DNA of 64,000 bases. Source: Paraflavitalea pollutisoli. GTDB lineage: Bacteria > Bacteroidota > Bacteroidia > Chitinophagales > Chitinophagaceae. The notes under the pieces are model-generated. The model was not told where the DNA came from and made no database searches. It was given only the letters and a program-made list of their open reading frames with translations. Positions 17,210 to 30,106 of the stretch are shown one piece after another. The DNA lies in assembly GCF_029360705.1 (NCBI RefSeq), contig NZ_JARKMX010000002.1, positions 248,001 through 312,000 of the forward strand, written 5' to 3'. A program made the position numbers and the translations under genes. Every line of letters begins with the position of its first letter. The stretch's first letter is position 1.

Positions 17210-18910
17210 TCATTTAGCTACGAGCAGATCGAAACCAAAGAGGCTGCCTTCACCGATGCGGCTTTTGACCCAAATATTGCCCCCCTGTGCTTCAATAAAT
17301 TCTTTGGAGATGGCCAGGCCAAGGCCGGTACCGCTGCGTTCGTGGGTACCCGGCACTTTGAAGTAACGATCGAACAAGCGGGGCAGGTATTTCTCATCGA
17401 TGCCCCTGCCATGATCGGTTACGGTAAATGCCAATCGGTTGCCCTGTGGCACCACCGCTATATCGATACTGGTGGCGTCTGGAGAATAGCGTATAGCGTT
17501 GGTCAGAAAATTGATCAGTACCCAGGAGGTCTTTTCCGTATCGGCCAATACAGCCGGCAGGTTGGCAGGCAGGTTGGACTGTAAGACGATATTCTTCTGC
17601 ACGGCCTGAAACTGAACGGCCTGTACAGCCTGATCTACGATCGACTGCGGCGCAGCGGGCTGCAGCTTGAGTTGAATGTTCCCTGTCTCTACCTGCGACA
17701 TATTGAGCAATCCGCTGGTGATGTTCAACAGCCGGTCGGCGTCTTCGGAAATTCCTTTCGTCAGCTCCAGCTGTTCTGCATTGAAGGGGCCTATACGGTT
17801 ATCGGTCAGTAGTCGTGCACTCATCTTGATCGACGAGATGGGTGTCTTTAATTCGTGCGATACGGTAGCGATAAAATTGGTCTTGGCTTCATTGAGCTCA
17901 TGAAAAGGGGTAATGTTCCGCAGCACGATCACCTGCCCCGCCATGGCGCCATTGTTTAGCACATCCAGCACATCCTTACTGAAATAGCTTTCCTTTTCGT
18001 CGGCAAAGATCTTCAATTCCTTTTTGCTATTGTCTTCCTGCAGAAGGGTACGCATAAGGTCATTCTTCAAGGCTAGGTCGGGTGCATATTTACCGATCAT
18101 CTCTTTTTCCCGCAGGCCCAGCAGTTTCTCTGCTACGGCATTCAGGAACAGGATATGCCGGTTTTCATCGAGACCGATAATACCATCCCGCATTTGATTG
18201 ATGATGGTCTCTATGCGCTTCTTTTCGAAAGTCAGCTTGGCCAGGTTACTGTTCTCGTATTCATCGAGTTTACTGGCCATGCTGTTGAAAGCATTCGCCA
18301 GCTCGCCAAACTCATCTTCCTGCTTGAGATAAATACGCTTACTGTAATTCTTGTTGGCGATTTCCCGGATACCTTCTGCCAGTTTGGCCACGGGCTCCGC
18401 AATGATGCCGGGGAAGTTATAGATGAAGGTGATGACGATCAGGATCAGGCTGGTAAAGATGACGGTGAGCCACAATTGTGCTTTATCAGCCGTAAGGCCG
18501 GCAATGGCATTTTTCCGGAGGATGGCCTGCTGGTTGATCTCGTTGACCATTCTGATGGTGGTGCGCAGCTGTGCATAATTGGATGAATCGGTAGGCATGG
18601 AACGTAACTCTTTGAAGTCTTTGCGCAGTGTCTCCGTCATTTCCCGCTCTCCCATCTCGGTCACGTTGACTTCCTGGTTGCGCAGGTTGGCTTCGAAGCG
18701 GGTAAAGGCACTGGTGTCACTGGGCAGGTCTTCCAGGGCCTTCAACATGTTGTTGGAATACACCAACGACTCGTAGTTGTTTTTCAATATCTGCTCGGCA
18801 TCGCCGCTGAGGCGGTGCACATAGTATAGACTCAATATCCCAAAGGTGAGAATGACCAGGAAGAGAAATCCGAGACCCAGGGATAGTTTTGTTTTTAAAC
18901 GGACAGCCAT
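17210..18910 (-). CDS. Membrane histidine kinase of the Kdp region (KdpD C-terminal counterpart)
   Basis: 566 residues. Transmembrane segments lie at about 8-31 and 145-166, enclosing a roughly 110-residue periplasmic domain. They are followed by HAMP (167-222), PAS (230-335), HisKA with phospho-His352 in ATVSHELKTP, and a HATPase domain (NFLTNAIRYSP, DHGRGI, GTGLGLAISKEF). It follows the separate KdpD sensor half with only 7 bases between them. In Bacteroidota the KdpD function is often split in this way. Unlike E. coli KdpD it has an extracytoplasmic domain and a PAS domain. The likely partner is the sigma-54-type response regulator at 28757-30106; that pairing is inferred. Confidence 0.85.
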   Translation of the reverse strand: MAVRLKTKLSLGLGFLFLVILTFGILSLYYVHRLSGDAEQILKNNYESLVYSNNMLKALEDLPSDTSAFTRFEANLRNQEVNVTEMGEREMTETLRKDFKELRSMPTDSSNYAQLRTTIRMVNEINQQAILRKNAIAGLTADKAQLWLTVIFTSLILIVITFIYNFPGIIAEPVAKLAEGIREIANKNYSKRIYLKQEDEFGELANAFNSMASKLDEYENSNLAKLTFEKKRIETIINQMRDGIIGLDENRHILFLNAVAEKLLGLREKEMIGKYAPDLALKNDLMRTLLQEDNSKKELKIFADEKESYFSKDVLDVLNNGAMAGQVIVLRNITPFHELNEAKTNFIATVSHELKTPISSIKMSARLLTDNRIGPFNAEQLELTKGISEDADRLLNITSGLLNMSQVETGNIQLKLQPAAPQSIVDQAVQAVQFQAVQKNIVLQSNLPANLPAVLADTEKTSWVLINFLTNAIRYSPDATSIDIAVVPQGNRLAFTVTDHGRGIDEKYLPRLFDRYFKVPGTHERSGTGLGLAISKEFIEAQGGNIWVKSRIGEGSLFGFDLLVAK

Positions 18911-18917
18911 AATTGTA

Positions 18918-20042
18918 TTATGAAAGGATGACGATGTCGATATCGGCGGCCGACAGCTTGTTCAGGAGCTGGTTGAATACGGCCGTGCTCAATATCACAC
19001 TGAACAGGTTGAGGTGGGGTTTGCCTACACAGATGGTTGTTACCTTGCGTTGCTCCGCCACCTCGATGATCCCTTTGGCAATATTACTGTGTTTGATCTT
19101 AATGACCTCTCCCCCCAACTCGGTAGCCAGTTTGAAGTTGTTGATGAGGTGACGCTGGGCTGCCAGTCCGATCTTGTCACCGTCTTCCCGGGGCGTTTGC
19201 ACGTACAGCAGGTACCATTTGGAATTGTAATAGCTGGAAAGGCGGGCGGTTTTCCGGATCACCTTCTTCGCTATTTCGTGGTTGCTGCTGATGCAGGCCA
19301 TGAATCGCTCCTGCCGGGCATTGGCATTGCGGGGCAACACATGCTCGATCTTTCGCTCTACCTGGCTGGCCACCTCTTTGAGGGCCAGTTCGCGCAACTG
19401 GAGGATCTTCTCCGACTGAAAGAAGTTACGCAGCGCGGTTTCCACTTTATCGGGCGCATAGATCTTTCCTTCCCGCAGGCGGGTGACCAGTTCATCGGCG
19501 GTCAGGTCGATGTTGACCACTTCGTCGGCCTGTTTGAGAATGCTGTCCGGAATCCGCTCGGCCACTTCAATGCCGGTGATCCCTTTGACTTCCTCGTTAA
19601 GGCTTTCGATGTGTTGTATATTGACGGCACTGACCACATTGATACCGGCATCGAGTATGTCCATCACATCCTGCCAGCGCTTTTCATTTTTACTACCTTC
19701 TATATTGGTATGGGCCAGCTCATCGACGATCACCACCTCCGGGTGCAGGTTGAGGATGGCCTGCACATCCAGCTCTTCCAGTTCCTTGCCTTTGTAGAAA
19801 AGCTTGCGGCGGGGAATGATGGGCAGCCCATCGAGTAAGGCATGGGTTTCCCGCCGCATATGGGTTTCGATGTATCCGATCTTGACATCGACCCCATTGC
19901 GCAGGAGGGTATGTGCCTCCTGCAGCATGCGGTAGGTTTTGCCGACACCGGCACTCATGCCAATGTATATTTTGAACTTGCCCCGCCGCGACTGGCGGAT
20001 GAGCTCGATAAAATGTTCCACATTCTTATCTCGATCGGGCAT
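18918..20042 (-). CDS. kdpD: KdpD N-terminal sensor half (KdpD plus Usp domains)
   Basis: 374 residues, cytoplasmic. The KdpD domain has the Walker-A-like GMSAGVGKTY at 28-37 and Walker B DELAHTN at 107-113. A universal-stress-protein-like domain follows from about 245 (FMACISSNHEIAKKVIRK, ending DIDIVILS). No membrane segments or kinase core are present, so it is only the first half of a canonical KdpD (about 890 residues); the kinase is the next gene. KdpD senses potassium limitation and controls kdp expression. The GNAT gene upstream overlaps its start by 17 bases, which indicates coupled translation. Confidence 0.9.
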   Translation of the reverse strand: MPDRDKNVEHFIELIRQSRRGKFKIYIGMSAGVGKTYRMLQEAHTLLRNGVDVKIGYIETHMRRETHALLDGLPIIPRRKLFYKGKELEELDVQAILNLHPEVVIVDELAHTNIEGSKNEKRWQDVMDILDAGINVVSAVNIQHIESLNEEVKGITGIEVAERIPDSILKQADEVVNIDLTADELVTRLREGKIYAPDKVETALRNFFQSEKILQLRELALKEVASQVERKIEHVLPRNANARQERFMACISSNHEIAKKVIRKTARLSSYYNSKWYLLYVQTPREDGDKIGLAAQRHLINNFKLATELGGEVIKIKHSNIAKGIIEVAEQRKVTTICVGKPHLNLFSVILSTAVFNQLLNKLSAADIDIVILS

Positions 20043-20631
20043 ACGACAGATTGGATTCTAAGTTAACTTTTTTCTGTACGGGACTAAACAGCATGGCCGT
20101 ACAAAGACATACTTTGTGCTGCTTTTGGCGCAGGATATCATAGTTCACACAGCTTTGGCAACCTTTCCAGAAGGCCTCGTCGTGCACGATCTGGTCGAAG
20201 GTGACCGGTTCGAAGCCCAGGCGGGTATTCATTTTCATGATGGCCGCGCTGGTGGTGATACTGAACAACTTGGCGTTGGGGTATTTTTCCCGCGACAGTT
20301 CGAATATCTTTTCTTTGATGGTCCGGGCTACGCCCATCTCCCGGTAAGCGGGGTTGACGATGAGGCCAGAATTGGATACGAACTCGCCATTGGCCCACAC
20401 TTCGACATAGGAGAAGCCCACCCATTGTCCACCGCTGGTGAGGGCAATCACGGCTTTACCGTCTTTCATTTTGTCTACGATCGAAGCAGGCGATCGTTTG
20501 GAGATACCGGTACCTCTTTTCCTGGCAGAGCTTTCCATTTCATCAACGATCTCCTGGGCATATTGCCCGTCATAAATGTCCGCTACGCGGACGATAATAC
20601 TATCTGGTTCGGTTTTACTATCTGTGTCCAT
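20026..20631 (-). CDS. GNAT-family N-acetyltransferase with cysteine-rich tail
   Basis: 201 residues. The acetyl-CoA-binding core is seen in VSNSGLIVNPAYREMGVARTI and the ITTSAAIMKMNTRLGFEPV stretch. The C-terminal tail has WKGCQSCVNYD and KVCLCTAM, four cysteines that could bind a metal. From memory this resembles the GNAT protein often encoded next to argG in Bacteroidota, with the same KRSP and WKGC-x2-CVNYD pattern. Here it sits between the DUF7674 gene and the KdpD half, overlapping the latter by 17 bases. Its substrate in this setting is unknown; a regulatory acetylation role would be speculation. Confidence 0.78.
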   Translation of the reverse strand: MDTDSKTEPDSIIVRVADIYDGQYAQEIVDEMESSARKRGTGISKRSPASIVDKMKDGKAVIALTSGGQWVGFSYVEVWANGEFVSNSGLIVNPAYREMGVARTIKEKIFELSREKYPNAKLFSITTSAAIMKMNTRLGFEPVTFDQIVHDEAFWKGCQSCVNYDILRQKQHKVCLCTAMLFSPVQKKVNLESNLSYARSR

Positions 20632-20649: not shown

Positions 20650-21009
20650 TTAGCAACCTGTACCCATTACCTGTTTAAGATAAGCCGCATACAGGGGTGC
20701 GGGTATCAGCGAACAAAGGATCAGCTTTTCTACCCGGTCTTTGGGCATGAAGGCAGTGAAGGAAAATATGAAGGTGTTTTCGATCGTATTGCGGACGATG
20801 TTATCGCCCTGGCGATACAGTTTCTCTGCTACTGCAAAGCATTTCCGGGCCAAGGTGAGATTGTGACCAAGTACTGCTGCTTTGGTGAACTCCGAGAAGC
20901 ACTGTACCGATTTGTAGATATCCATCGTAAAGCGGGCGGGATACTCATCGCCGGTGATCTTGGGCAACTCGGCTTTCAGCAGGGAAGGCACTTCGTATTG
21001 TGTGATCAT
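20650..21009 (-). CDS. DUF7674 family protein of the Kdp sensor operon
   Basis: 119 residues from ATG 21009, preceded by AAGGAG six bases upstream, which decides this start over an ATG 45 bases earlier. The sequence begins MITQYEVPSLLKAELP and is predicted mostly helical (ARKCFAVAEKLYRQGDNIVRN), without a signal peptide. It matches the DUF7674 family that I associate with Bacteroidota kdp loci. It is the first gene of the operon that continues with the GNAT, KdpD half and kinase genes. It is a plausible small regulator or adaptor; no function is known to me. Confidence 0.7.
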   Translation of the reverse strand: MITQYEVPSLLKAELPKITGDEYPARFTMDIYKSVQCFSEFTKAAVLGHNLTLARKCFAVAEKLYRQGDNIVRNTIENTFIFSFTAFMPKDRVEKLILCSLIPAPLYAAYLKQVMGTGC

Positions 21010-21040: not shown

Positions 21041-21059
21041 ATGCCAAACGGCATTCCAA
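21041..21059 (-). promoter_or_regulatory. Putative -24/-12 (sigma-54-like) promoter of the Kdp sensor operon
   Basis: On the minus strand the 19 bases read TTGGAATGCCGTTTGGCAT. They match 14 of 19 positions with the element at 27194-27212 in front of the kdp structural operon. GG and G are spaced as in a sigma-54 promoter (GG-N10-G), but the usual C of the -12 GC is not conserved. It lies 31 bases upstream of the DUF7674 start codon. Promoter activity is inferred. Confidence 0.5.
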
Positions 21060-21153
21060 TCCTGGCCGTTTTGGCGATCTACCGCTGCAATGCAACAGGG
21101 GCGGGCCTTTGGCGAGCTGTCTCTTTTTAGGAATGAAAACCGTCCCGGTCGAA

Positions 21154-21190
21154 CCTTTTCATTTTGGTAGGGTGGCTTTCGTTTTGACAG
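21154..21190 (-). promoter_or_regulatory. Paired-dyad upstream activator site of the Kdp sensor operon (putative)
   Basis: Two imperfect dyads lie side by side. The first occupies 21154-21172; the second is CTTTC-gtttt-GACAG at 21176-21190. The junction AGGGTGGCTTTC (21169-21180) is identical to the junction of the stronger paired dyads at 27309-27348. The core starts 110 bases upstream of the putative -24/-12 element, against 112 bases at the other site. This spacing suits an enhancer-type activator site. Confidence 0.55.
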
Positions 21191-21202
21191 GGGGGCTGCC
21201 AG

Positions 21203-21236
21203 AAAAAGCAAAACTCCTTCCCGCGGGGGAAAGGAG
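21203..21236 (-). terminator. Terminator-like hairpin between porin and DUF7674 genes
   Basis: On the minus strand CTCCTT-t-CCC pairs with GGGAAGGAG and is followed by TTTTGCTTTTTC. It starts 29 bases after the porin stop codon. It probably ends the kdp structural transcript and separates it from the sensor operon, which has its own promoter elements just downstream. Confidence 0.65.
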
Positions 21237-21264
21237 CGCTTGCTTAGAAAGGAATAAGCACAGT

Positions 21265-22338
21265 TTAGAAGCTTACCGCGACGGACGCAGTAACAAAAGC
21301 ATTGTTCTTTTGTGTGGTTTGCGCTTTGGTGAAAATAGCGTCTTTGCTGCTCAGGTTCCTGCCTTCCAGTCGTATTAGGATATTGGATACGGGGGCATAG
21401 TCGATGTTGAGGGAATAGCCAGTTGTTTTGAAACCGTTGGTAGTGCCGGTGGCAATGATCACTCCTTGTTTATCTTCATAGTACTCTCCGCGGGCGGCGA
21501 TGGCCCATTTGTCGTTGATGGCGTACTTCAGGATCACGACGGGTGAGTACCAGGTATTCATGTCGCTGCTGCCTTTGGTCTTTTGCTCGGTGCCGATATC
21601 AAAGCCTGCTGTGACACCCAGTTTGGGGCTCAGGTTGAAGATGGCATAGAGGTTATGAAAATAGCGCATCAGGCGGGCACTATCTGGTTTGTCGGTGCCG
21701 ATGAAGGTGCTGTAATTAAAAGTGGTGGTACTGTTGGGTTTGAATTGCACCTGGGTACCCCAGCTCATGAGGGAGTTACCATCCACTCTTTTGATGCGCT
21801 GCCAGCCATTGAGGGCCATTGCACTCAGTATCCACTTGTTGTTGTTGCTGGTATAGGTCAGTTTGGCACCCGCCTCATAGTAGGGTGAGTTATCGGCCAG
21901 TATACTCCTGGTGAGTGTCCAGCAATCCTTGGAGATGGCGCTTTCGAATCCAATATGTGATCCGAAGATGCCGGCATCCAACCACAGGTTTGCTTTCTTC
22001 GACAGCTTTACCCCTGCATTGGCTTCATAGATGTTCTTCAATACACCAGGCTCTGCTGCATAATTTGCATTCATGTAGGTACCGGCAGCGATCGCCAGGT
22101 TGGCCCGTACATACTCAGTACTGTAAGCCGCTTTGAGGAAACCGAGGTTGAGGTTGAACTCATTGTTCCTGTTGTGGCTGTAAATGAACCCGGGTCGGTT
22201 GTTGTCGAGCGGCTTGTTGAAATCATAGGTATAGTACACTTCTGCATATCCACTGATCGTGAGTGGTGAAGGTTTGGTATCCTGCGCCATAGCGCCGATA
22301 CCGGTAAGCATGAGGGCTCCTGCCAAAAGCTTTTTCAT
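21265..22338 (-). CDS. Outer-membrane beta-barrel porin of the Kdp operon (OmpL-like/bbp2)
   Basis: 357 residues with signal peptide MKKLLAGALMLTGIGAMAQ. The mature protein begins LTISGYAEVYYTYDFNKP and alternates in amphipathic strands (GFLKAAYSTEYVRANLAIAAGTY, IGFESAISKDCWTL). It ends with FVTASVAVSF, an aromatic C-terminal strand. This corresponds to the putative beta-barrel porin-2 family found next to Bacteroidota kdp genes. It lies behind kdpC, separated by a GC-rich hairpin, and probably lets ions or small solutes reach the pump. The coupling to potassium is inferred from gene order. Confidence 0.8.
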   Translation of the reverse strand: MKKLLAGALMLTGIGAMAQDTKPSPLTISGYAEVYYTYDFNKPLDNNRPGFIYSHNRNNEFNLNLGFLKAAYSTEYVRANLAIAAGTYMNANYAAEPGVLKNIYEANAGVKLSKKANLWLDAGIFGSHIGFESAISKDCWTLTRSILADNSPYYEAGAKLTYTSNNNKWILSAMALNGWQRIKRVDGNSLMSWGTQVQFKPNSTTTFNYSTFIGTDKPDSARLMRYFHNLYAIFNLSPKLGVTAGFDIGTEQKTKGSSDMNTWYSPVVILKYAINDKWAIAARGEYYEDKQGVIIATGTTNGFKTTGYSLNIDYAPVSNILIRLEGRNLSSKDAIFTKAQTTQKNNAFVTASVAVSF

Positions 22339-22386
22339 CTTTCGTTCTTTGTTTATAGGTGCTTGTTGTTAAGAATGCGATGGAAA

Positions 22387-22409
22387 GCGTGCCCGGCAAC
22401 CGGGCACGC
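22387..22409 (-). other. Intercistronic GC hairpin between kdpC and porin genes
   Basis: GCGTGCCCGG and CCGGGCACGC form a perfect 10-bp stem with a 3-base loop, 9 bases after the kdpC stop. The minus-strand follow-on TTTCCATC is a weak T-run. It more likely adjusts mRNA stability or partial termination than acts as a full terminator. Confidence 0.6.
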
Positions 22410-22418
22410 CGGGAGGGA

Positions 22419-22982
22419 TTACTTTAATTTATCAAGGGCGATGTTGAGTTGAAGTACGTTGACCTTTGCCGGACCAAACATGCCCAGGAAGGGGCCTGCC
22501 GTTTGCTGATCCACCAGGGCGGTGAGCTTCGCGGCATCCAAACTCCGGATGGCGGCGATACGCTTTACCTGTACTTTGGCGGCGGCAGGCGATAAATCGG
22601 GATCAAGGCCACTACCGGAAGCCGTTACCAGTTCCGCCGGGATCTCTTCTTTTTTTACACCCGGATTGTGTACCAGGAAACTATCGATCCTGTCCTGCAC
22701 TACCTGCAGGTAGTCGGGATTGGAAGGCCCTTTGTTGGAACCGGCGGAACCAGCAGCATTGTAGTCTACTGCAGAGGGCCGTCCCTGGAAGTATTTGTCG
22801 TCGGTGAACTTTTGTCCTACCAGCGCATAGCCTACCACTTTACCATCCACCACCAGTTTTTGACCGGCACCTTCACCAGGTGCCATTTTGCCCACCGCTG
22901 CGATCAGGATCGGGTAGATCACCGCCAGCAATACGACCATCACGATCGTCAATTTGAGGGAGGGCAATATATACTTTTTCAT
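22419..22982 (-). CDS. kdpC: Potassium-transporting ATPase subunit C
   Basis: 187 residues from ATG 22982 (MKKYILPSLKLT); a longer reading upstream is not family-like. One N-terminal membrane helix (residues 8-30, LTIVMVVLLAVIYPILI) precedes the periplasmic domain. That domain holds FQGRPSAVDYNAAGSAGSNKG, LVTASGSGLDPDLSPAAA and the C-terminal LGMFGPAKVNVLQLN. KdpC is the small chaperone-like subunit of the KdpFABC pump. The start lies 19 bases after kdpB, in the standard A-B-C order. Length is typical. Confidence 0.96.
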   Translation of the reverse strand: MKKYILPSLKLTIVMVVLLAVIYPILIAAVGKMAPGEGAGQKLVVDGKVVGYALVGQKFTDDKYFQGRPSAVDYNAAGSAGSNKGPSNPDYLQVVQDRIDSFLVHNPGVKKEEIPAELVTASGSGLDPDLSPAAAKVQVKRIAAIRSLDAAKLTALVDQQTAGPFLGMFGPAKVNVLQLNIALDKLK

Positions 22983-23001
22983 CTTGTTACTTTTTATTGA
23001 A

Positions 23002-25050
23002 TTATAAGAATAATGCGAGGAGCATATCGATGAGCTTGATACCGATGAATGGTACGATGATACCACCCAGGCCATAGATGAACAGGTTTCTGCGCAACAG
23101 GGCACTGGCACCGATGGGCTTGTACGTTACGCCACGCAGCGCGAGCGGGATCAATACCGGGATAATGATGGCATTGAAGATCACGGCCGACAGGATCGCA
23201 CTTTCCGGACTTTGCAGGTGCATGATGTTAAGCGCCTGTAAGGCGGGTATCGAAGTAATGAAGAGTGCCGGCACGATGGCAAAGTATTTGGCCACATCGT
23301 TGGCGATGGAGAACGTGGTGAGCGTACCACGTGTCATCAGCAATTGTTTACCAATCTCGACAATCTCGATGAGCTTGGTGGGGTCGTTGTCGAGGTCCAC
23401 CATGTTACCCGCTTCTTTGGCTGCCTGCGTACCACTGTTCATGGCTACACCGACATCGGCTTGTGCCAGGGCAGGCGCATCATTGGTACCATCACCCATC
23501 ATCGCTACCAGCTTACCACCCTGTTGCTCGCGTTTGATGTAGTTCATCTTATCCTCGGGCTTGGCCTCGGCGATGAAATCATCTACACCGGCTTTCTGGG
23601 CGATGTATTTTGCCGTGAGCGGGTTATCACCCGTTACCATCACCGTTTTCACACCCATCTTACGCAGGCGTTCGAAACGTTCCTGGATACCGGGTTTGAT
23701 GATGTCCTGCAGCTCTATGACACCCAGCACGGCTTCATTGCGGCTTACCACCAGCGGCGTACCACCGTTCTGCGCGATCTCTTTCACCCTGTCTTCCGTT
23801 TCTACGGGAAAGCCATTGCCATTCTTTTTGACCATGGTTTTGATGGCATCGGAAGCGCCCTTGCGGATGCGGGTACCATCGTGCAGATCGACGCCGCTGC
23901 TTCTCGTTTCAGCCGTGAACGGGATGAACTTGATACCGTTGGCCGAGGGCGTATGTTTTATGTTCTTGTTGGCCGCCAGCTCGATGATGGACTTACCTTC
24001 CGGAGTTTCATCTGCCAGGGAAGCCATCACACAGGCTTCGATAAAATCCTGCTCGCGTACATTACCCGATGGCCAGAAATGGGTGGCCTTGCGGTTACCG
24101 ATGGTGATGGTACCTGTTTTATCGAGCAACAGGGTATCGAGGTCGCCGGCTGTTTCAACGGCCTTACCACTTTTGGTGATGACGTTGGCGCGCAAGGCCC
24201 TGTCCATACCGGCTATACCGATGGCGGAAAGCAGTCCGCCAATGGTGGTAGGAATGAGACATACGAACAAAGAAATGAAGGCCGCGATGGTGATAGAGGT
24301 ATTGGCGTAATCGGCAAAAGGTTTCAGGGTTACACATACGATGATAAAGATGAGCGTGAAACTGGCGAGCAGGATCGTCAGGGCGATCTCATTAGGTGTT
24401 TTCTGGCGGGAGGCGCCTTCTACCAGTGCGATCATTTTGTCGAGGAAACTTTCGCCGGGATCCGTCGTCACTTTCACCACAATTCTGTCGGAGAGTACTT
24501 TAGTACCACCGGTGACGGATGATTTATCACCACCCGACTCCCGGATCACGGGGGCCGACTCGCCGGTGATGGCCGATTCATCGATCGTGGCGAGCCCTTC
24601 GATGATCTCCCCATCCATGGGGATCATATCACCGGCTTCACACACAAACATATCACCTTTGCGTAATTGAGAGGAAGGCACCACCTTGACTTCGTTGGTA
24701 TAGATCTCCCCTACCGGAAAGATCTTTTTGGCCGGTGTTTCTTCCCGTGTCTTGCGCAGGCTATCGGCCTGTGCTTTACCACGTGCTTCAGCGATGGCCT
24801 CGGCAAAATTGCCAAAGAGTACGGTAACGAAAAGAATGGCCGTGATGAATGCATTGTAGGCGAGGCTACCCTGTGATGTTTCGCCGGCGGCGATCCAGAT
24901 ACATACGCCCAGCATGACGATAGTACCCAGCTCTACGGTAAACATGACCGGGTTGCGGAACATGGTGCGGGGATTGAGCTTTACGAATGACTGCTTCAGG
25001 GCAGCCACCACCATATCCCGGGGAAATAAAGCTGTTTTATTATTTTTCAT
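23002..25050 (-). CDS. kdpB: Potassium-transporting P-type ATPase subunit B
   Basis: 682 residues. All P-type motifs are intact: ITGESAPV in the actuator domain, the phosphorylation site [15 protein letters not shown] and [31 protein letters not shown]-type hinge sequence, read in pieces. Seven membrane segments are apparent, including [21 protein letters not shown]. The subunit hydrolyses ATP to drive high-affinity K+ uptake through KdpA. The TGES serine that is inhibited by phosphorylation in E. coli is conserved. It is separated from kdpA by 82 bases containing a strong hairpin. Confidence 0.97.
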
Positions 25051-25092
25051 TGTGTATAGTCATTTAGTTGCTACGAAATGCCTGCGAGGGGT

Positions 25093-25120
25093 AAGTGGCA
25101 GGTATAGGGCCCTGCCACTT
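25093..25120 (-). other. Intercistronic hairpin between kdpA and kdpB
   Basis: AAGTGGCAGG and CCTGCCACTT form a perfect 10-bp stem with an 8-base loop. It lies 12 bases downstream of the kdpA stop, and no T-run follows on the minus strand. An RNA-processing or stability role between the two largest subunits is likely; full termination would leave kdpB unexpressed. Confidence 0.6.
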
Positions 25121-25132
25121 CCGGTCGCATCA

Positions 25133-26845
25133 CTACAGGCTGAAGTATTCGGCCAGTGGTCCCAGCGTCAACGCCGGGAAGAAGGATAAGGCATTAATGA
25201 TGATGATTACAGCGAATGTCATCATACCAAAGGTCATCGAGTCGGTGCGCAGGGTACCGGGTGATGCTGGTATGTATTTCTTGTTGGCCAGTAAGCCGAT
25301 GATGGCCACCGGACCAATGATGGGAATAAACCGCGACAGGATCAACACGATACCGGTCGATACGTTCCAGAAGATATTGTTGTCACCCAGCCCTTCGAAA
25401 CCACTACCATTGTTGGCATTGGCAGACGTGAATTCGTACAGCATTTCCGAGAATCCGTGATAGCCAGGATTATTTAGCCAGCTGCCGGGTTTTACTGCCC
25501 AATCCATTTCCGGATGATGAGCTACATAATAGGCCGCCAGGGCAACACCCGCCTTCAACAGGAAGGCCGAGAAGAGCGTCACGATGGCGGCGATCTTCAC
25601 CTCCCGTGCTTCTACTTTATGGCCCATGAACTCAGGCGTACGACCCACCATCAGTCCGGCAATGAATACTGCGATGATGATGTATATAAGATAGTTGAGT
25701 ATACCTACCCCACAACCGCCATAGAAGGCATTGATCATCATGCCGAGCATTTGCATCATGCCCGACAATGGCATAGAACTGTCGTGCATCGAATTGACTG
25801 ACCCTGTAGAGATGATGGTGGTCATAATACTCCAAAAACCAGAAGCTGCTGGCCCAAACCGCACTTCCTTACCCTCCATCGCCCCCATTGGCTGCGCTAC
25901 GCCCAATTTCGCAATGGCCGGGCTACCCCCTATTTCCCAGTTCAGGGTCGGTATCAGCAACAACAGCATCCCTACTGTCATGACACCGAAGATCACCCAG
26001 GCCATTTTCTTTCGATTGATGTAAAAACCAAGTGCGAAGATCATGGCGATGGGTATGATCAATTGCGCAATCATCTCTACCATATTGGTAAAGTAGTTGG
26101 GGTTCTCGAGTGGGTGGGCCGAGTTGGCGCCAAACCAACCACCACCGTTGGTGCCGAGGTGTTTGATGGCGATCATACCAGCTGCGGGTCCACGTGATAC
26201 CTGTACCGTATCTCCCTGCAAAGTGGTGATCGTATCTTTTCCGTCGAAGCTGGCGGGGGTACCATTGAACACCAGGATCAGTGCCGTAACGATAGAGAGC
26301 GGCAACAGTATATGGGTAATGGTTTTGGTGAAGATGCTCCAGAAATTGCCCAGGCTATTGGTGGTCTTTTCTTTCAACCCATTGAGCACACCCACCAGCG
26401 CTGCAATACCGGTGGCGGCACTGACGAACATCAGGAAGTTCATCACCAGCAATTGGGTCAGGTAGGTGACGCCCGACTCACCGGAATAGTGCTGCAGGTC
26501 GCAGTTGACCAGGAAGCTGATGGCGGTGTTAAAAGCCAGGTCGGGCGTTTGCCCGGGATTGCCATCGGGGTTGAGCGGCAATTTGTCCTGGAAGATGAGG
26601 AGAAACAAAGCGTATACGAACCACAGCATATTGATGGTCAGCATGGCTTTGAGGAATTCCTTCCAGTTCATCTTCCTTGCAGGATCGATACCGCAGATAC
26701 GGTAGATGAACTTTTCGATCGGGTTCATGAAGTCGGTGATCGTTCTATCGCCGCGGAATACTTTGGCGATATACCTTCCCAATGGGAATGCCAGCAACAC
26801 GCTGAGCAGGAAGGTCACGACGACGCCGGTTAATTCTGTATTCAT
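25133..26845 (-). CDS. kdpA: Potassium-transporting ATPase subunit A
   Basis: 570 residues with about ten membrane helices. Diagnostic stretches are YRICGIDPARKMNWKEF, FLVNCDLQHYSGE (the first selectivity-type loop), TNGGGWFGANSAHPLENP and FTSANANNGSGFEGL. KdpA is the channel-like, K+-selective subunit of KdpFABC. Its start lies 18 bases behind the kdpF stop. Length and motif order are normal for the family. It is probably induced under K+ limitation by the KdpD-type sensor encoded downstream. Confidence 0.97.
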   Translation of the reverse strand: MNTELTGVVVTFLLSVLLAFPLGRYIAKVFRGDRTITDFMNPIEKFIYRICGIDPARKMNWKEFLKAMLTINMLWFVYALFLLIFQDKLPLNPDGNPGQTPDLAFNTAISFLVNCDLQHYSGESGVTYLTQLLVMNFLMFVSAATGIAALVGVLNGLKEKTTNSLGNFWSIFTKTITHILLPLSIVTALILVFNGTPASFDGKDTITTLQGDTVQVSRGPAAGMIAIKHLGTNGGGWFGANSAHPLENPNYFTNMVEMIAQLIIPIAMIFALGFYINRKKMAWVIFGVMTVGMLLLLIPTLNWEIGGSPAIAKLGVAQPMGAMEGKEVRFGPAASGFWSIMTTIISTGSVNSMHDSSMPLSGMMQMLGMMINAFYGGCGVGILNYLIYIIIAVFIAGLMVGRTPEFMGHKVEAREVKIAAIVTLFSAFLLKAGVALAAYYVAHHPEMDWAVKPGSWLNNPGYHGFSEMLYEFTSANANNGSGFEGLGDNNIFWNVSTGIVLILSRFIPIIGPVAIIGLLANKKYIPASPGTLRTDSMTFGMMTFAVIIIINALSFFPALTLGPLAEYFSL

Positions 26846-26863
26846 TGTCCAAACAGTTTAGCG

Positions 26864-26944
26864 TTAAAATTTTTCGGGTTTCAGCAGTACGTATACCAGG
26901 TATATGAATACGAGGATGGACACTGCAAATAGTACATTCATCAT
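26864..26944 (-). CDS. kdpF: KdpF small membrane subunit
   Basis: 26 residues starting MMNVLFAVSILVFIYLVYVL and ending KPEKF. It is a single hydrophobic helix followed by Lys-Pro-Glu-Lys-Phe, the usual end of KdpF in this phylum. An adjacent ATG (26941) is an equally good start. KdpF stabilises the KdpABC complex. Position directly before kdpA, with an 18-base gap, confirms the identity. Confidence 0.9.
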   Translation of the reverse strand: MMNVLFAVSILVFIYLVYVLLKPEKF

Positions 26945-26968
26945 AACTTGTGTGTTTTCTGGTTTGGG

Positions 26969-27052
26969 TTACACTTTTTCGAAAAAGTCTACACATTTAA
27001 AAAAGAGCGCGAAGCTGACAATACCAGCCAGGAACAAAATGAGGGTTAACAT
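26969..27052 (-). CDS. 27-residue membrane peptide upstream of kdpF
   Basis: The frame reads MLTLILFLAGIVSFALFF, then KCVDFFEKV and stop. It is one hydrophobic helix with a short acidic/basic tail, in overall design like KdpF but different in sequence. It lies 24 bases before kdpF and 10 bases after the stop of the 36-residue peptide. Its place inside the operon and its compact, gene-like spacing argue that it is translated. I recall similar unannotated short frames before kdpF in related genomes, but could not check. It may be an extra pump subunit. Confidence 0.6.
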   Translation of the reverse strand: MLTLILFLAGIVSFALFFKCVDFFEKV

Positions 27053-27062
27053 ATCTATTGTA

Positions 27063-27173
27063 TTAATTGATGATTGACGATACCAGCAAGGCAATCAATA
27101 CCGCTACATACAGTACAGGTACTACGATGTGCATTTTGAGTTTATCGGCGAATGCTTTTTTGGTTGCTTTCAT
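27063..27173 (-). CDS. 36-residue basic/hydrophobic membrane peptide, first frame of the kdp operon
   Basis: The frame begins MKATKKAFADKLKMHIVVPV and continues as a hydrophobic helix (LYVAVLIALLVSS) to IIN and stop. The lysine-rich N-terminus should stay in the cytoplasm, with one membrane-spanning helix. Its start is 20 bases behind the putative -24/-12 element, so it would be the first gene of the transcript. No Shine-Dalgarno is seen, which is common in Bacteroidota. It could be a structural micro-subunit or a regulatory leader peptide. Confidence 0.58.
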   Translation of the reverse strand: MKATKKAFADKLKMHIVVPVLYVAVLIALLVSSIIN

Positions 27174-27193
27174 AGCTGTTTTTGACATAGCAA

Positions 27194-27212
27194 TTGACAA
27201 AGGGCATACCGA
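27194..27212 (-). promoter_or_regulatory. Putative -24/-12 (sigma-54-like) promoter of the kdp structural operon
   Basis: The minus strand reads TCGGTATGCCCTTTGTCAA, sharing 14 of 19 positions with the element before the sensor operon, including GG and TTTG at sigma-54 spacing (GG-N10-G). The -12 GC is GT here, so the match is imperfect. Distance to the first start codon is 20 bases. Confidence 0.5.
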
Positions 27213-27308
27213 CGACGAGGCTTAATTTTAAATTACCACTTAAGAACTGATTACTAATCCATTAGAAGGAGAAGGGATATGAAACGGCAGCATACCGGTA
27301 ATCATCGA

Positions 27309-27348
27309 CCCTTTCAAAATGAAAGGGTGGCTTTCCATAATGGAAAGC
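27309..27348. promoter_or_regulatory. Tandem perfect dyads in the kdp/dctA intergenic region (putative activator site)
   Basis: Two perfect palindromes are adjacent: CCCTTTCAAAATGAAAGGG (27309-27327) and GCTTTCCATAATGGAAAGC (27330-27348). The first lies 97 bases upstream of the putative -24/-12 element of the kdp operon. The second ends 35 bases before the dctA start codon on the other strand. The junction AGGGTGGCTTTC recurs before the sensor operon. Binding by the sigma-54 response regulator encoded at 28757-30106 is inferred. Confidence 0.6.
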
Positions 27349-27383: not shown

Positions 27384-28643
27384 ATGATCCCCCAAGGCAA
27401 GAAAAAGTTCTATAAAACCCTATATTTCCAGGTCATTGTAGCCATCGTCATCGGCATTCTGCTCGGCCATTTTTATCCCAATTTTGCGGTGCAGTTTAAA
27501 CCCCTGGGGGATGGTTTTATCCGCCTGGTAAAAATGCTGATCGGCCCCGTCATCTTCTGTACGATCGTGACCGGTATGACGGGCATGGACGATATGAAGC
27601 GGGCAGGAACGGTGGGCGTCAAAGCATTGCTCTATTTTGAAGTACTTACGACTATCGCCTTGCTGATCGGACTGGTCGCCATCAATATCCTGCGCCCGGG
27701 TGAGGGCATGAATGTCGACGTCACCAAACTCGACCCTTCGGCCCTGAAAGACATTGCCGTGGTGCAGAAACCTCAAACGACGGTTGAGTTCCTCCTGAAT
27801 ATTATCCCCCACACGATCGTCGAGGCTTTTGCCAAAGGAGATCTGTTGCAGATACTGTTGTTCTCTGTATTGTTTGGCTCCGCTGCCCTGCGCCTTGGCA
27901 GCCGGGTGCAGCCCGTCATGACCTTCATCAAAGGGTTTTCGGACATCCTGTTTGGCATTATTCATATTATCATGCGGGTGGCGCCACTGGGCGCGCTGGG
28001 CGCCATGGCCTTTACCATTGGTAAGTACGGGGCAGGCAGCCTGCAGTCGCTGGCCAAACTGATGGGCACTTTCTATCTCACCTGTATCGTGTTTATCGTA
28101 GTGGTACTCGGTGCTATCATGTATAGCATGCGCCTCAATATCTTCAAACTGCTGGCCTACCTCAAGGAAGAATTGCTGGTGGTGTTGGGCACCTCTTCGA
28201 GCGAATCGGCACTGCCAACGCTCATGGAGAAACTTGAAAATGCCGGCTGCTCCAAATCGGTAGTAGGCCTGGTGGTACCCACCGGTTATTCTTTCAACCT
28301 GGATGGTACCTCCATCTACCTCACGATGGCCGCTATCTTTATTGCGCAAGCTACCAATACCCCGATGGACCTTGGCCAGCAACTTACGCTACTGGTGGTA
28401 TTGATGGTTACCTCCAAAGGGGCGGCGGGCGTTACCGGCAGTGGCTTCATCACCCTGGCCGCCACGTTACCGGCAGCGGGCAATATTCCTGTAGCAGGTC
28501 TTGCCCTCATCCTGGGCATCGACCGCTTTATGAGTGAAGCACGCGCGCTCACCAATATCATCGGCAATGCGGTGGCGACCATCTTCGTATCGAACTGGGA
28601 GAAGGAACTGGACAAAGAGAAAGCCCGGGAATTGTTGCAATAG
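27384..28643 (+). CDS. dctA: Dicarboxylate/cation symporter (DctA-like, DAACS family)
   Basis: 419 residues with eight membrane helices and the two re-entrant loops of the family. Signature motifs are the serine-rich [16 protein letters not shown] loop, [20 protein letters not shown] and the later [16 protein letters not shown]. These give sodium- or proton-coupled uptake of C4-dicarboxylates such as succinate, fumarate and malate; a glutamate/aspartate preference cannot be excluded. It is divergent from the kdp operon and shares the dyad-containing intergenic region. It is convergent with the sigma-54 regulator gene, which recalls DctD-controlled dctA in other bacteria. Confidence 0.87.
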
Positions 28644-28756: not shown

Positions 28757-30106
28757 TTAGTTCAACTTGTATTCTTCTATTTTTCTGTATAAGGTAGTGA
28801 GACCGATGTCCAGCAGCCGGGCGGCTTCTGTTTTATTACCATGGGTGTGATTAAGTACGCGTTGTATATGCAGCTTTTCCATGCTGGCCAGTGAAAAGGC
28901 TGACAGCGTATGGCCATTGGCACCCAAGGCGGGTTGCTGCTGCAGCTCGAGGGGCAGGTCGGTCAACTGTAGCTCCGGCCCGTCGGACATGATCACCGAA
29001 CGCTCGATGATGTTCTTTAATTCCCGGATATTCCCCTTCCAGGCATGACGCTCCAATTGTTCTACAAACGCAGTGCTCATCGCTGTGATGCGCTGGTTCG
29101 ACTTTCTGGCCACCACCTGCATGAAGTAATTGGCCAGCGCCGGTATATCCTTTTTGCGGTCCCGAAGGGCCGGGAGGGAGATGATGAATACATTCAACCG
29201 GTAATAAAGGTCTTCCCGGAATTTTCCCGCGTCCACCTCTTCCTGCAGATGCCGGTTGGTGGCTGCGATGATACGCACATTCACGCGGGTGGTTTTGGTA
29301 TCGCCTACTTTTATGAACTCACTGGTTTCGAGTACCCGCAGCAGCTTGCTCTGCAGGTCGATGTGCATTTCACCGATCTCATCCAGAAAGAGGGTACCGT
29401 TGTTGGCTTCTTCGATCAATCCTTTTTTGTCTTTCACAGCACTCGTGAAAGCACCTGCACGATAGCCAAACAATTCACTTTCGAGCAGTTCTTTGCTGAA
29501 GGCCCCACAGTTGAGGGCGATAAAGGGCTTGCCCGCCCGCTTGCTGCCGGCGTGAATGGCCTGCGCAAAGACTTCTTTTCCGGTGCCGGTTTCTCCCAGC
29601 AATAGCACGGTGGCATCGGTGGCTGCTACCTTACGCGCCAGGGTAATTGCCTCTTTGATGGCGGTCGACTGGCCAAGAATATTGTCGAAGTTGTATTTCT
29701 TTCCTACCTGCTGCTCCAGTTGTTCGATGCGTTTTTGCAGCTGCCCCTTCTCCATGGCCCGCATCAGCAGGGGAATAATTTTGTCGTTGTCATCACCTTT
29801 GGTGATGTAGTCGAAGGCTCCATTTTTCATGGCCTGTACGCCATCGGGAATATTGCCATAGGCCGTCAACAGGATGATTTCCGTGGCAGGATATTTGGCT
29901 TTCACTTCTTTTACAAAGTCTACCCCGCTGCCATCGGGTAATTTCACATCACACAGTATGACATCGACCGGCTCTTTATCCAGCAGTTTCAAGGCTGGCT
30001 TCAGGGCTGCTGCTTCCAGGGTCGTAAACCCTTCGAGGGTGATGATACGCTTCAGCAGTCCGCGCAGCTTTTCTTCGTCGTCGATGAGCAATATGGTACC
30101 GGGCAT
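28757..30106 (-). CDS. Sigma-54-dependent response regulator (NtrC family)
   Basis: 449 residues. The receiver domain spans 1-120 with phospho-acceptor Asp53 (LCDVKLP). The AAA+ domain has Walker A GETGTGKE at 171-178, GAFTSA at 218-223 in place of the usual GAFTGA, and Walker B GTLFLDEIGEM near 238. A Fis-type HTH closes the protein (NKTEAARLLDIGLTTLYRKIEEY). It activates sigma-54 promoters after phosphorylation. No kinase gene is adjacent. The nearest is the Kdp kinase 10 kb away, and the kdp promoters carry sigma-54-like elements, so it is the best KdpE substitute here. Regulation of dctA is an alternative. Confidence 0.88.
   Translation of the reverse strand: MPGTILLIDDEEKLRGLLKRIITLEGFTTLEAAALKPALKLLDKEPVDVILCDVKLPDGSGVDFVKEVKAKYPATEIILLTAYGNIPDGVQAMKNGAFDYITKGDDNDKIIPLLMRAMEKGQLQKRIEQLEQQVGKKYNFDNILGQSTAIKEAITLARKVAATDATVLLLGETGTGKEVFAQAIHAGSKRAGKPFIALNCGAFSKELLESELFGYRAGAFTSAVKDKKGLIEEANNGTLFLDEIGEMHIDLQSKLLRVLETSEFIKVGDTKTTRVNVRIIAATNRHLQEEVDAGKFREDLYYRLNVFIISLPALRDRKKDIPALANYFMQVVARKSNQRITAMSTAFVEQLERHAWKGNIRELKNIIERSVIMSDGPELQLTDLPLELQQQPALGANGHTLSAFSLASMEKLHIQRVLNHTHGNKTEAARLLDIGLTTLYRKIEEYKLN

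Follow-up and report, generated by a model that had tools for sequence, protein, structure and literature searches.

A probable KdpE-less, sigma-54-dependent Kdp regulon with paired upstream dyads in Paraflavitalea pollutisoli

In a 64,000-nucleotide (nt) stretch of the 8.76-Mb genome of the Chitinophagaceae bacterium Paraflavitalea pollutisoli (contig NZ_JARKMX010000002.1, positions 248,001–312,000; hereafter the window), the kdp genes very probably form a regulon that dispenses with KdpE and depends on sigma-54. Kdp is the textbook potassium (K+)-starvation system and is known mainly through KdpDE. Here, both the structural operon and a sensor operon are preceded by paired dyads, approximately 106–130 bp upstream of a GG-N10-G element that resembles a sigma-54 −24/−12 promoter, and an NtrC-type response regulator is encoded nearby (28757–30106, minus strand). 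The case for it is based on the anatomy of the locus, its conservation, the genome-wide specificity of the dyads and the covariation of the regulator recognition helix with its operator. From these sequences we infer a phosphorelay, the use of sigma-54, a low-K+ signal and positive feedback: at low K+ a separate histidine kinase (17210–18910), perhaps modulated by a short KdpD, would phosphorylate the regulator, which would bind two adjacent dyads approximately 108 and 129 bp upstream of the −24/−12 element, contact sigma-54 RNA polymerase by looping and open the promoter with ATP hydrolysis. One such enhancer-promoter would drive an operon of small open reading frames (ORFs), kdpFABC and a porin gene, and a second copy of the plan would drive DUF7674–GNAT–kdpD–kinase, so that induction of the pump would bring with it that of the sensing genes, as positive feedback.

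The initial annotation of the window had noted an identical 12-base core, AGGGTGGCTTTC, in the same orientation before both operons, and this core is indeed found at 21169–21180 and 27324–27335 (both plus strand); the genome holds four copies, the other two lying on other contigs in what appears by eye to be coding sequence. The 19-base elements that follow (27194–27212 and 21041–21059, both minus strand) have 14 of 19 positions in common and lie 112 (kdp) and 110 (sensor operon) bases from the core, and the first start codons come after 20 and 31 bases, at the conserved starts 27173 and 21009, exactly as had been described. A longer ORF start for the sensor operon, at 21054, falls within the 21041–21059 element and is not the one that is conserved. 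The further claim that the core is embedded in paired dyads holds for kdp, where 27309–27348 comprises two near-perfect palindromes, and only loosely for the sensor operon, where those at 21154–21192 are imperfect. At the kdp promoter (all minus strand), the distal dyad GCTTTCCATTATGGAAAGC (27330–27348; 15.8 bits) is centred at approximately −129 from the GG, the proximal dyad CCCTTTCATTTTGAAAGGG (27309–27327) at approximately −108, and the element GGTATGCCCTTTGTCA (27194–27212, GG at 27209–27210) scores 18.8 bits with a matrix derived from 85 loci. The sensor operon, on the same strand, has a degenerate distal dyad (21174–21192, approximately −126) of 4.9 bits, a proximal dyad CCCTACCAAAATGAAAAGG (21154–21172, approximately −106) of 19.2 bits and the element GGAATGCCGTTTGGCA (21041–21059, GG at 21056–21057) of 19.3 bits. 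Shuffled versions of the two promoter regions shared 12 bases in 3 of 1,000 cases; yet the 12-base identity was rejected as sole evidence because 602 different 12-mers are repeated within the window, and the question was therefore put to related loci.

KdpA loci were gathered from the same family (45 named and 40 of 79 unnamed; the nearest named ones are from Paraflavitalea, Niastella and Chitinophagaceae), and 85 regions, with the window (labelled WIN among the loci compared) included and the duplicate L080 left out, were used for motif search. Scanning 86 regions with a sigma-54 matrix was noisy (P ≤ 0.01 in 13 of 86), and a first expectation-maximization run converged on kdpF-like coding sequence. 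The rerun with that part removed revealed the motif GGYAY-N4-TTTGGCA, which reached at least 12 bits in 59 of 85 loci, compared with 11 of 850 shuffled sequences and 3 of the 85 regions in reverse complement. Its best-conserved columns are GG and TTTG, which keep a fixed spacing. A palindromic motif search of 64 loci with an element of at least 11 bits, covering 230 bases upstream and 40 downstream, revealed tandem dyads of the CCCTTTCATTTTGAAAGGG type (179 sites of at least 9 bits; shuffle mean 2.4). Where both dyads were clear they lay 18–23 bp apart within the 18–24 bp searched, and 20–22 bp apart in 38 of 45 loci.

Element and dyads were then scored together as a composite promoter, with a threshold of at least 24 bits in total, which was found upstream of kdpA in 71 of the 85 training loci. 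The test set consisted of 40 of 85 further loci of the phylum that were unused in training, some of them close kin of training loci; the composite was present in 18 of the 26 with KdpA of 50–70% identity and in none of the 14 belonging to a divergent Bacteroidota KdpA clade (38–47% identity). All six response regulators tested in the divergent-KdpA loci were of the OmpR/KdpE type, and the two run on NCBIfam match KdpE best. Altogether, 89 of 111 loci have the composite ahead of kdp, including those of Pedobacter, Spirosoma, Chryseobacterium and Flavobacterium. Shuffled loci gave 1 match in 1.68 Mb compared with 96 real matches. Outside the shared kdp dyads there were 15 matches in 2.41 Mb, eight of them above 30 bits, and of these eight, five are sense-strand matches ahead of a DUF7674 or porin gene (WIN, L007, L012, L006 and L063) and three are reversed (L007, L144 and L006, the last within kdpC at 54.4 bits).

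Within the genome of P. pollutisoli, the pattern CCYTTYCAWWWTGRAARGG, drawn from kdp dyads and searched with up to two mismatches, occurs at 11 places compared with 3 for a reversed control. The best two of the 11 are the proximal dyad of the kdp promoter, the only one with no mismatch, and that of the sensor-operon promoter, the only one with a single mismatch. Across the 89 composite-bearing loci, scanned from −145 to −65, 39 have the main dyad at −104 to −112 and 37 at −84 to −88, and the other 13 have it at −73 to −75, −96, −98, −102, −116 and −127 to −131. The distance class changes at least 16 times on the KdpA tree, with bins that are one helical turn wide by construction, and phasing gives R values of 0.64 at 10.5 bp and 0.66 at 11 bp; this is suggestive of helical phasing between dyad and element without proving it, and as an argument carries moderate weight.

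The regulator (28757–30106) combines a receiver domain (PF00072), a sigma-54 AAA+ domain (PF00158) with a GAFTSA loop and a Fis-type helix-turn-helix (PF02954), and of 25 Sigma54_activat matches in the genome it is the only one in the window, as had been claimed. In 86 of 111 loci its gene shares the strand of kdpA and lies no more than 5 kb upstream of it; where the locus stretch had none, an orthologue (57–69% identity) was found elsewhere in 10 of 10 genomes searched, and in G099 and G389 the orthologue sits approximately 8–10 kb upstream of kdpA. The regulator gene adjoins the kinase gene in L040 and L142 and is about 1.1 kb or less away from it in L051 and L053. The recognition helix has the form I(G/A)x1x2TLYRK in 79 loci, and its variable pair goes with the base at offset 5 of the proximal dyad: LT with T in 73 of 84 half-sites (the others 10 A and 1 G), IA with A in 48 of 50, and LA or TA with C in 18 of 18; three loci with other helix pairs have mixed bases there. 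In seven independent tree pairs, the left half-site changed the same way in 6.4 on average and the opposite way in 0 (median P = 0.031), and the right half-site in 5.3 and 0 (P = 0.0625). Among the helix columns and offsets tried, this pair and offset have the highest mutual information, a value uncorrected for kinship. Because the recognition helix covaries with the dyad base, the regulator is tied to the proximal dyad by evidence beyond gene order, and on these sequence grounds it very probably binds there. The proposal of an enhancer-driven Kdp system thus finds support both in the conservation of element and dyads in many Bacteroidota and in the covariation of helix and dyad, with the dependence on sigma-54 predicted from sequence.

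The designation of the regulon as KdpE-less likewise stands: a KdpE-model search of the genome found no good KdpE candidate, the best score being 162.7 bits as against 253 and 238 bits for two regulators encoded next to kdp in divergent loci of the phylum. It is this comparison and not the curated KdpE cut-off of 325 that carries the point, because neither the best score of the genome nor the two comparators reach the cut-off. Nor is there a full-length KdpD with a kinase domain, as in canonical KdpDE; instead, the locus encodes a KdpD of 374 amino acids (aa) with a KdpD domain, a Usp domain just under its cut-off and no kinase (18918–20042), and a separate HAMP-PAS histidine kinase identified by domain matches (17210–18910). 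The genome has two rpoN genes (L090 and L091), the second of which adjoins another NtrC-type response regulator gene.

Co-activation of the sensor operon, also proposed in the initial annotation, is supported by the sequence in this species and is not a fixed trait: L005, L006 and L050, the three closest relatives, lack the second promoter. That only the structural operon would be enhancer-driven, with the 21154–21192 site as a non-functional or chance copy, draws on the same lack of an equivalent in these relatives and on the weak distal dyad, and we consider it improbable. The sensor-operon site was absent from training, yet its composite scores 43.4 bits, the second highest of the 15 matches outside the shared kdp dyads; its proximal dyad is the second-best match in the genome; and its spacing is −106. 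Moreover, the composite precedes a separate sensor operon in 4 of 105 loci (the window, L007, L012 and L066), with analogues before DUF7674 in L007 and L012 and a weaker one (27.2 bits) in L017. In L066 a single dyad pair, at approximately −381 and −402 from kdpA, lies between divergent sigma-54-like promoters of kdpA and kdpD, at approximately −110/−131 to one promoter and −126/−105 to the other.

The dyads might instead act as RNA hairpins, chiefly as the intrinsic terminator of the upstream regulator gene, and several findings point that way. In 34 of 89 loci the centre of the proximal dyad lies 29–38 bp past the regulator stop codon, and in 45 it is no more than 70 bp away; the arms of this dyad covary near the regulator (0.874 versus 0.646 expected, 0 of 2,000 permutations) and elsewhere too (0.728 versus 0.587, 0 of 2,000); T-runs are richer near the regulator (5.67 versus 4.57 T in 8 positions, P = 0.0036); the kdp site of the window folds into a pair of hairpins (z = −5.9 and −6.7); and L006 has a dyad with a terminator-like T-tailed hairpin before DUF7674 where the element was not found. 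The helix code accounts for part of the arm covariation, and the distal dyads covary little (0.442 versus 0.398, 53 of 2,000). A terminator would also leave unexplained why 76 of the 89 main dyads keep set distances from the element and why the dyad base tracks the regulator helix. In WIN and L005 the kdp dyads lie between divergent genes and have no T-run (L006 and L050, in a like setting, keep GGGTTTT), and the sensor-operon site shows no RNA fold (z = +0.58), with a terminator-like hairpin of its own at 21213–21237. A terminator role is therefore unlikely at either site of the window, given the missing T-run at kdp and the missing fold at the sensor operon, and as a general account of the dyads we regard it as very improbable. 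In the 34 loci with close spacing, the proximal enhancer dyad is often tailed by a T-run, as if it were one element with the terminator of the activator gene.

Comparably improbable is a sigma-70-type (Bacteroidota housekeeping) promoter, with the regulator as a class I activator and the GG..TTTG element as something else. TTTG is also part of the Bacteroidota housekeeping promoter consensus, which counts for this explanation, and one sigma-70-like match is found at 27317–27289; but such matches occur in the region at chance level (10 found, 8.6 expected), the most conserved columns are GG together with TTTG at fixed spacing, and the regulator has a sigma-54 interaction domain with a GAFT(G/S)A loop. 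Least probable of all is that the 27309–27348 dyads are unrelated to kdp and control only the divergent gene of a DctA-like symporter, which starts at 27384. The dyads do lie 36–75 bp ahead of the symporter start, the nearer end 36 bp away, and a mirror element on the plus strand at 27453 scores 13.2 bits (51.3 in total), with weaker ones in L005, L006 and L050. The symporter gene is, however, found between the regulator and kdp in only 4 of 86 loci (WIN, L005, L006 and L050), whereas the composite precedes kdp in most, and the mirror match at 27453 was rejected as a promoter, as it lies within the symporter coding sequence. The dyads may nevertheless act in both directions, on kdp and on the symporter.

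Set beside these alternatives, the sigma-54-dependent regulon has its own difficulties, and, together with the rarity of the second promoter and its absence from the nearest relatives, the following points weigh against it. The GG-N10-G of the element is conserved, but the next base of the −12 part is G in approximately 62% of loci, C in 19% and T in 16%, and in the window the pair is GT for kdp and GG for the sensor operon, as against GC in the canonical sigma-54 promoter, in which the second base of the −12 element is C. The loop of the window regulator is GAFTSA and not GAFTGA, the form found in 57 of 74 regulators (65 of 74 when GAYTGA and GSFTGA are added; the duplicate L080 is counted). 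No significant association with the helix was seen for the distal dyad (left half 2.2 versus 1.0, right half 4.4 versus 0.6). At threshold, 22 of 111 loci lack the composite; 13 of the 22 reach 18 bits when thresholds are relaxed (shuffle mean 0.55; L060 and L143 doubtful), the upstream sequence available for L026 and L140 is too short, L137 and L144 carry a strong dyad but no element, and L014, L040, L076, L131 and L145 show nothing convincing even at relaxed thresholds. A high composite score is not proof, because the 54.4-bit match of L006 reads the wrong way inside kdpC. The correctly spaced element on its own occurs 41 times in the genome, the sensor-operon element among them, compared with 24 for a reversed control, an excess that is small and too weak to define a regulon. 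Finally, the proximal dyad likely doubles as a terminator in other species. The GAFTSA loop occurs in WIN, L005, L006, L008 and L050, where the kdp −12 pair is GC or GT and not GG; a link between loop and base is possible, although L010, L011, L055 and L057 combine GC with GAFTGA.

The proposed regulon resembles several known systems in part. In E. coli, KdpDE provides two-component control beside kdpFABC, and KdpD carries KdpD and Usp-like domains; the present locus shares both traits and differs in having no KdpE-type candidate above 162.7 bits and no full-length KdpD, with a sigma-54 regulator in place of the OmpR type. Enhancers of the NtrC/glnA type consist of paired dyads approximately 100–130 bp upstream of a −24/−12 promoter and about two helical turns apart, an arrangement that the kdp dyads share, whereas their core, TTTC-N5-GAAA with lineage variants, and the mostly GG form of −12 set them apart. 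The closest published precedent is DVU3334 of Desulfovibrio vulgaris, described as a sigma-54-dependent response regulator with GAFTGA that was mapped to kdpFABC, in a system where KdpD is divided between a K+ sensor/UspA protein and a kinase with its own ORF (PMC3333781, 2011; PMC4641369, 2015). Judged by that published description, the likeness lies in a sigma-54 response regulator near kdp and a split KdpD. The passages of these papers that treat the system place DVU3334 within the kdp operon itself and report no orthologues beyond those in D. vulgaris Miyazaki and S. fumaroxidans; in many Bacteroidota, by contrast, regulator and kdp form separate units, the dyads and their spacing are conserved and, in P. 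pollutisoli, a further copy of the promoter serves the sensor operon. In Deinococcus radiodurans, kdpD-N is likewise apart from the sensor kinase, and a response regulator needed for kdp expression is 23.9% identical to E. coli KdpE, the relevant passages mentioning no sigma-54 activator (PMC5716572).

The short KdpD has been described as a serine kinase probably controlled by cyclic di-AMP (c-di-AMP), with Bacteroidota among the phyla that have mainly the KdpD/Usp form, and for kinase-domain-free KdpD, mostly found in KdpE-less species, the passages concerned suggest only a post-translational role (PMC11018627, 2024). Compared with that model as presented there, the locus of P. pollutisoli has in addition a neighbouring kinase and a transcriptional route. 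c-di-AMP is unlikely as the signal here, because the search for a diadenylate cyclase (DAC) domain gave none in 57 of 60 genomes of the family, among them that of P. pollutisoli. Bacillus thuringiensis, which lacks kdpDE, also controls kdp transcription without KdpDE, as the Bacteroidota described here would, but is reported to do so by a c-di-AMP riboswitch acting on kdpFABC (PMC6488665) and not by a sigma-54 enhancer. The suggestion in the initial annotation that the arrangement was new has to be narrowed: the principle has been known from D. vulgaris since 2011, whereas none of the papers listed by the open-access literature search described kdp of Bacteroidota as being under sigma-54 control, and the passages found in two sigma-54 surveys (PMC12316311 and PMC3162934) hold nothing on kdp in this phylum. 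As far as these searches show, the system is a new, widespread Bacteroidota variant of sigma-54 Kdp control, with its novelty in breadth and cis-architecture.

We give about an even chance to the joint proposal that many Bacteroidota replace KdpE with a sigma-54 enhancer system, that LT, IA and LA/TA helices specify T, A and C, that the spacing shifts by approximately whole helical turns, that TTTGGCA is the Bacteroidota form of −12, that the dyad doubles as activator-gene terminator in many species and that the sensor operon provides positive feedback in P. pollutisoli. The locus offers a concrete transcriptional pathway for bacteria with kinase-free KdpD, which mostly lack KdpE; a test of this pathway needs no more than a pair of short DNA sites and a single regulator, and the loci compared provide a natural series of matched regulator–operator pairs for sigma-54 activators.

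The first gene of the sensor operon, encoding a DUF7674 protein (20650–21009, minus strand; PF24722), has its conserved start at 21009 preceded by AAGGAG. DUF7674 genes lie within 200 bp after a composite promoter in 20 of the 24 loci in which one was found (105 examined), as the first recognised gene behind the promoter; loci noted for this arrangement are, besides that of the window, L007, L009, L012, L015, L016, L017, L030, L034, L052, L056, L063, L065, L068, L073, L124–L126, L128 and L129. The predicted structure has six helices (pLDDT 86), and a fold search against the PDB gave no match at E ≤ 0.001. We consider DUF7674 a candidate for an unknown component of K+ starvation.

The remaining genes of the two operons are all on the minus strand. 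The structural operon opens with three tiny ORFs in series ahead of kdpA (26864–27173): one of 36 aa (27063–27173), which would be the first gene of the kdp transcript and whose start is conserved in L005, L006 and L050; a second of 27 aa (26969–27052), taken from the ORF list and relatives; and a kdpF-like one of 26 aa (26864–26944), with a coding motif of at least 8 bits in 84 of 85 loci. They are followed by kdpA (25133–26845; ORF and KdpA locus search), kdpB (23002–25050; ORF and locus comparison), kdpC (22419–22997; PF02669) and, at the end, a BBP2 porin gene (21265–22338; PF07642) that occupies the same position in many loci. RNA folding places the terminator-like hairpin at 21213–21237 between the structural and sensor operons. 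In the latter, DUF7674 is followed by a GNAT-like acetyltransferase gene (20026–20631; 21.2 bits, under the Pfam cut-off of 23.6) and then by the genes for the short KdpD and the kinase. The divergent DctA-like SDF symporter gene (27384–28643, plus strand; domain matches and locus comparison), between the regulator gene and kdp, stands outside the core unit. Composite Kdp-type promoters are also found ahead of separate BBP2 porin genes, at +8553 from kdpA in L006 and +9532 in L063.

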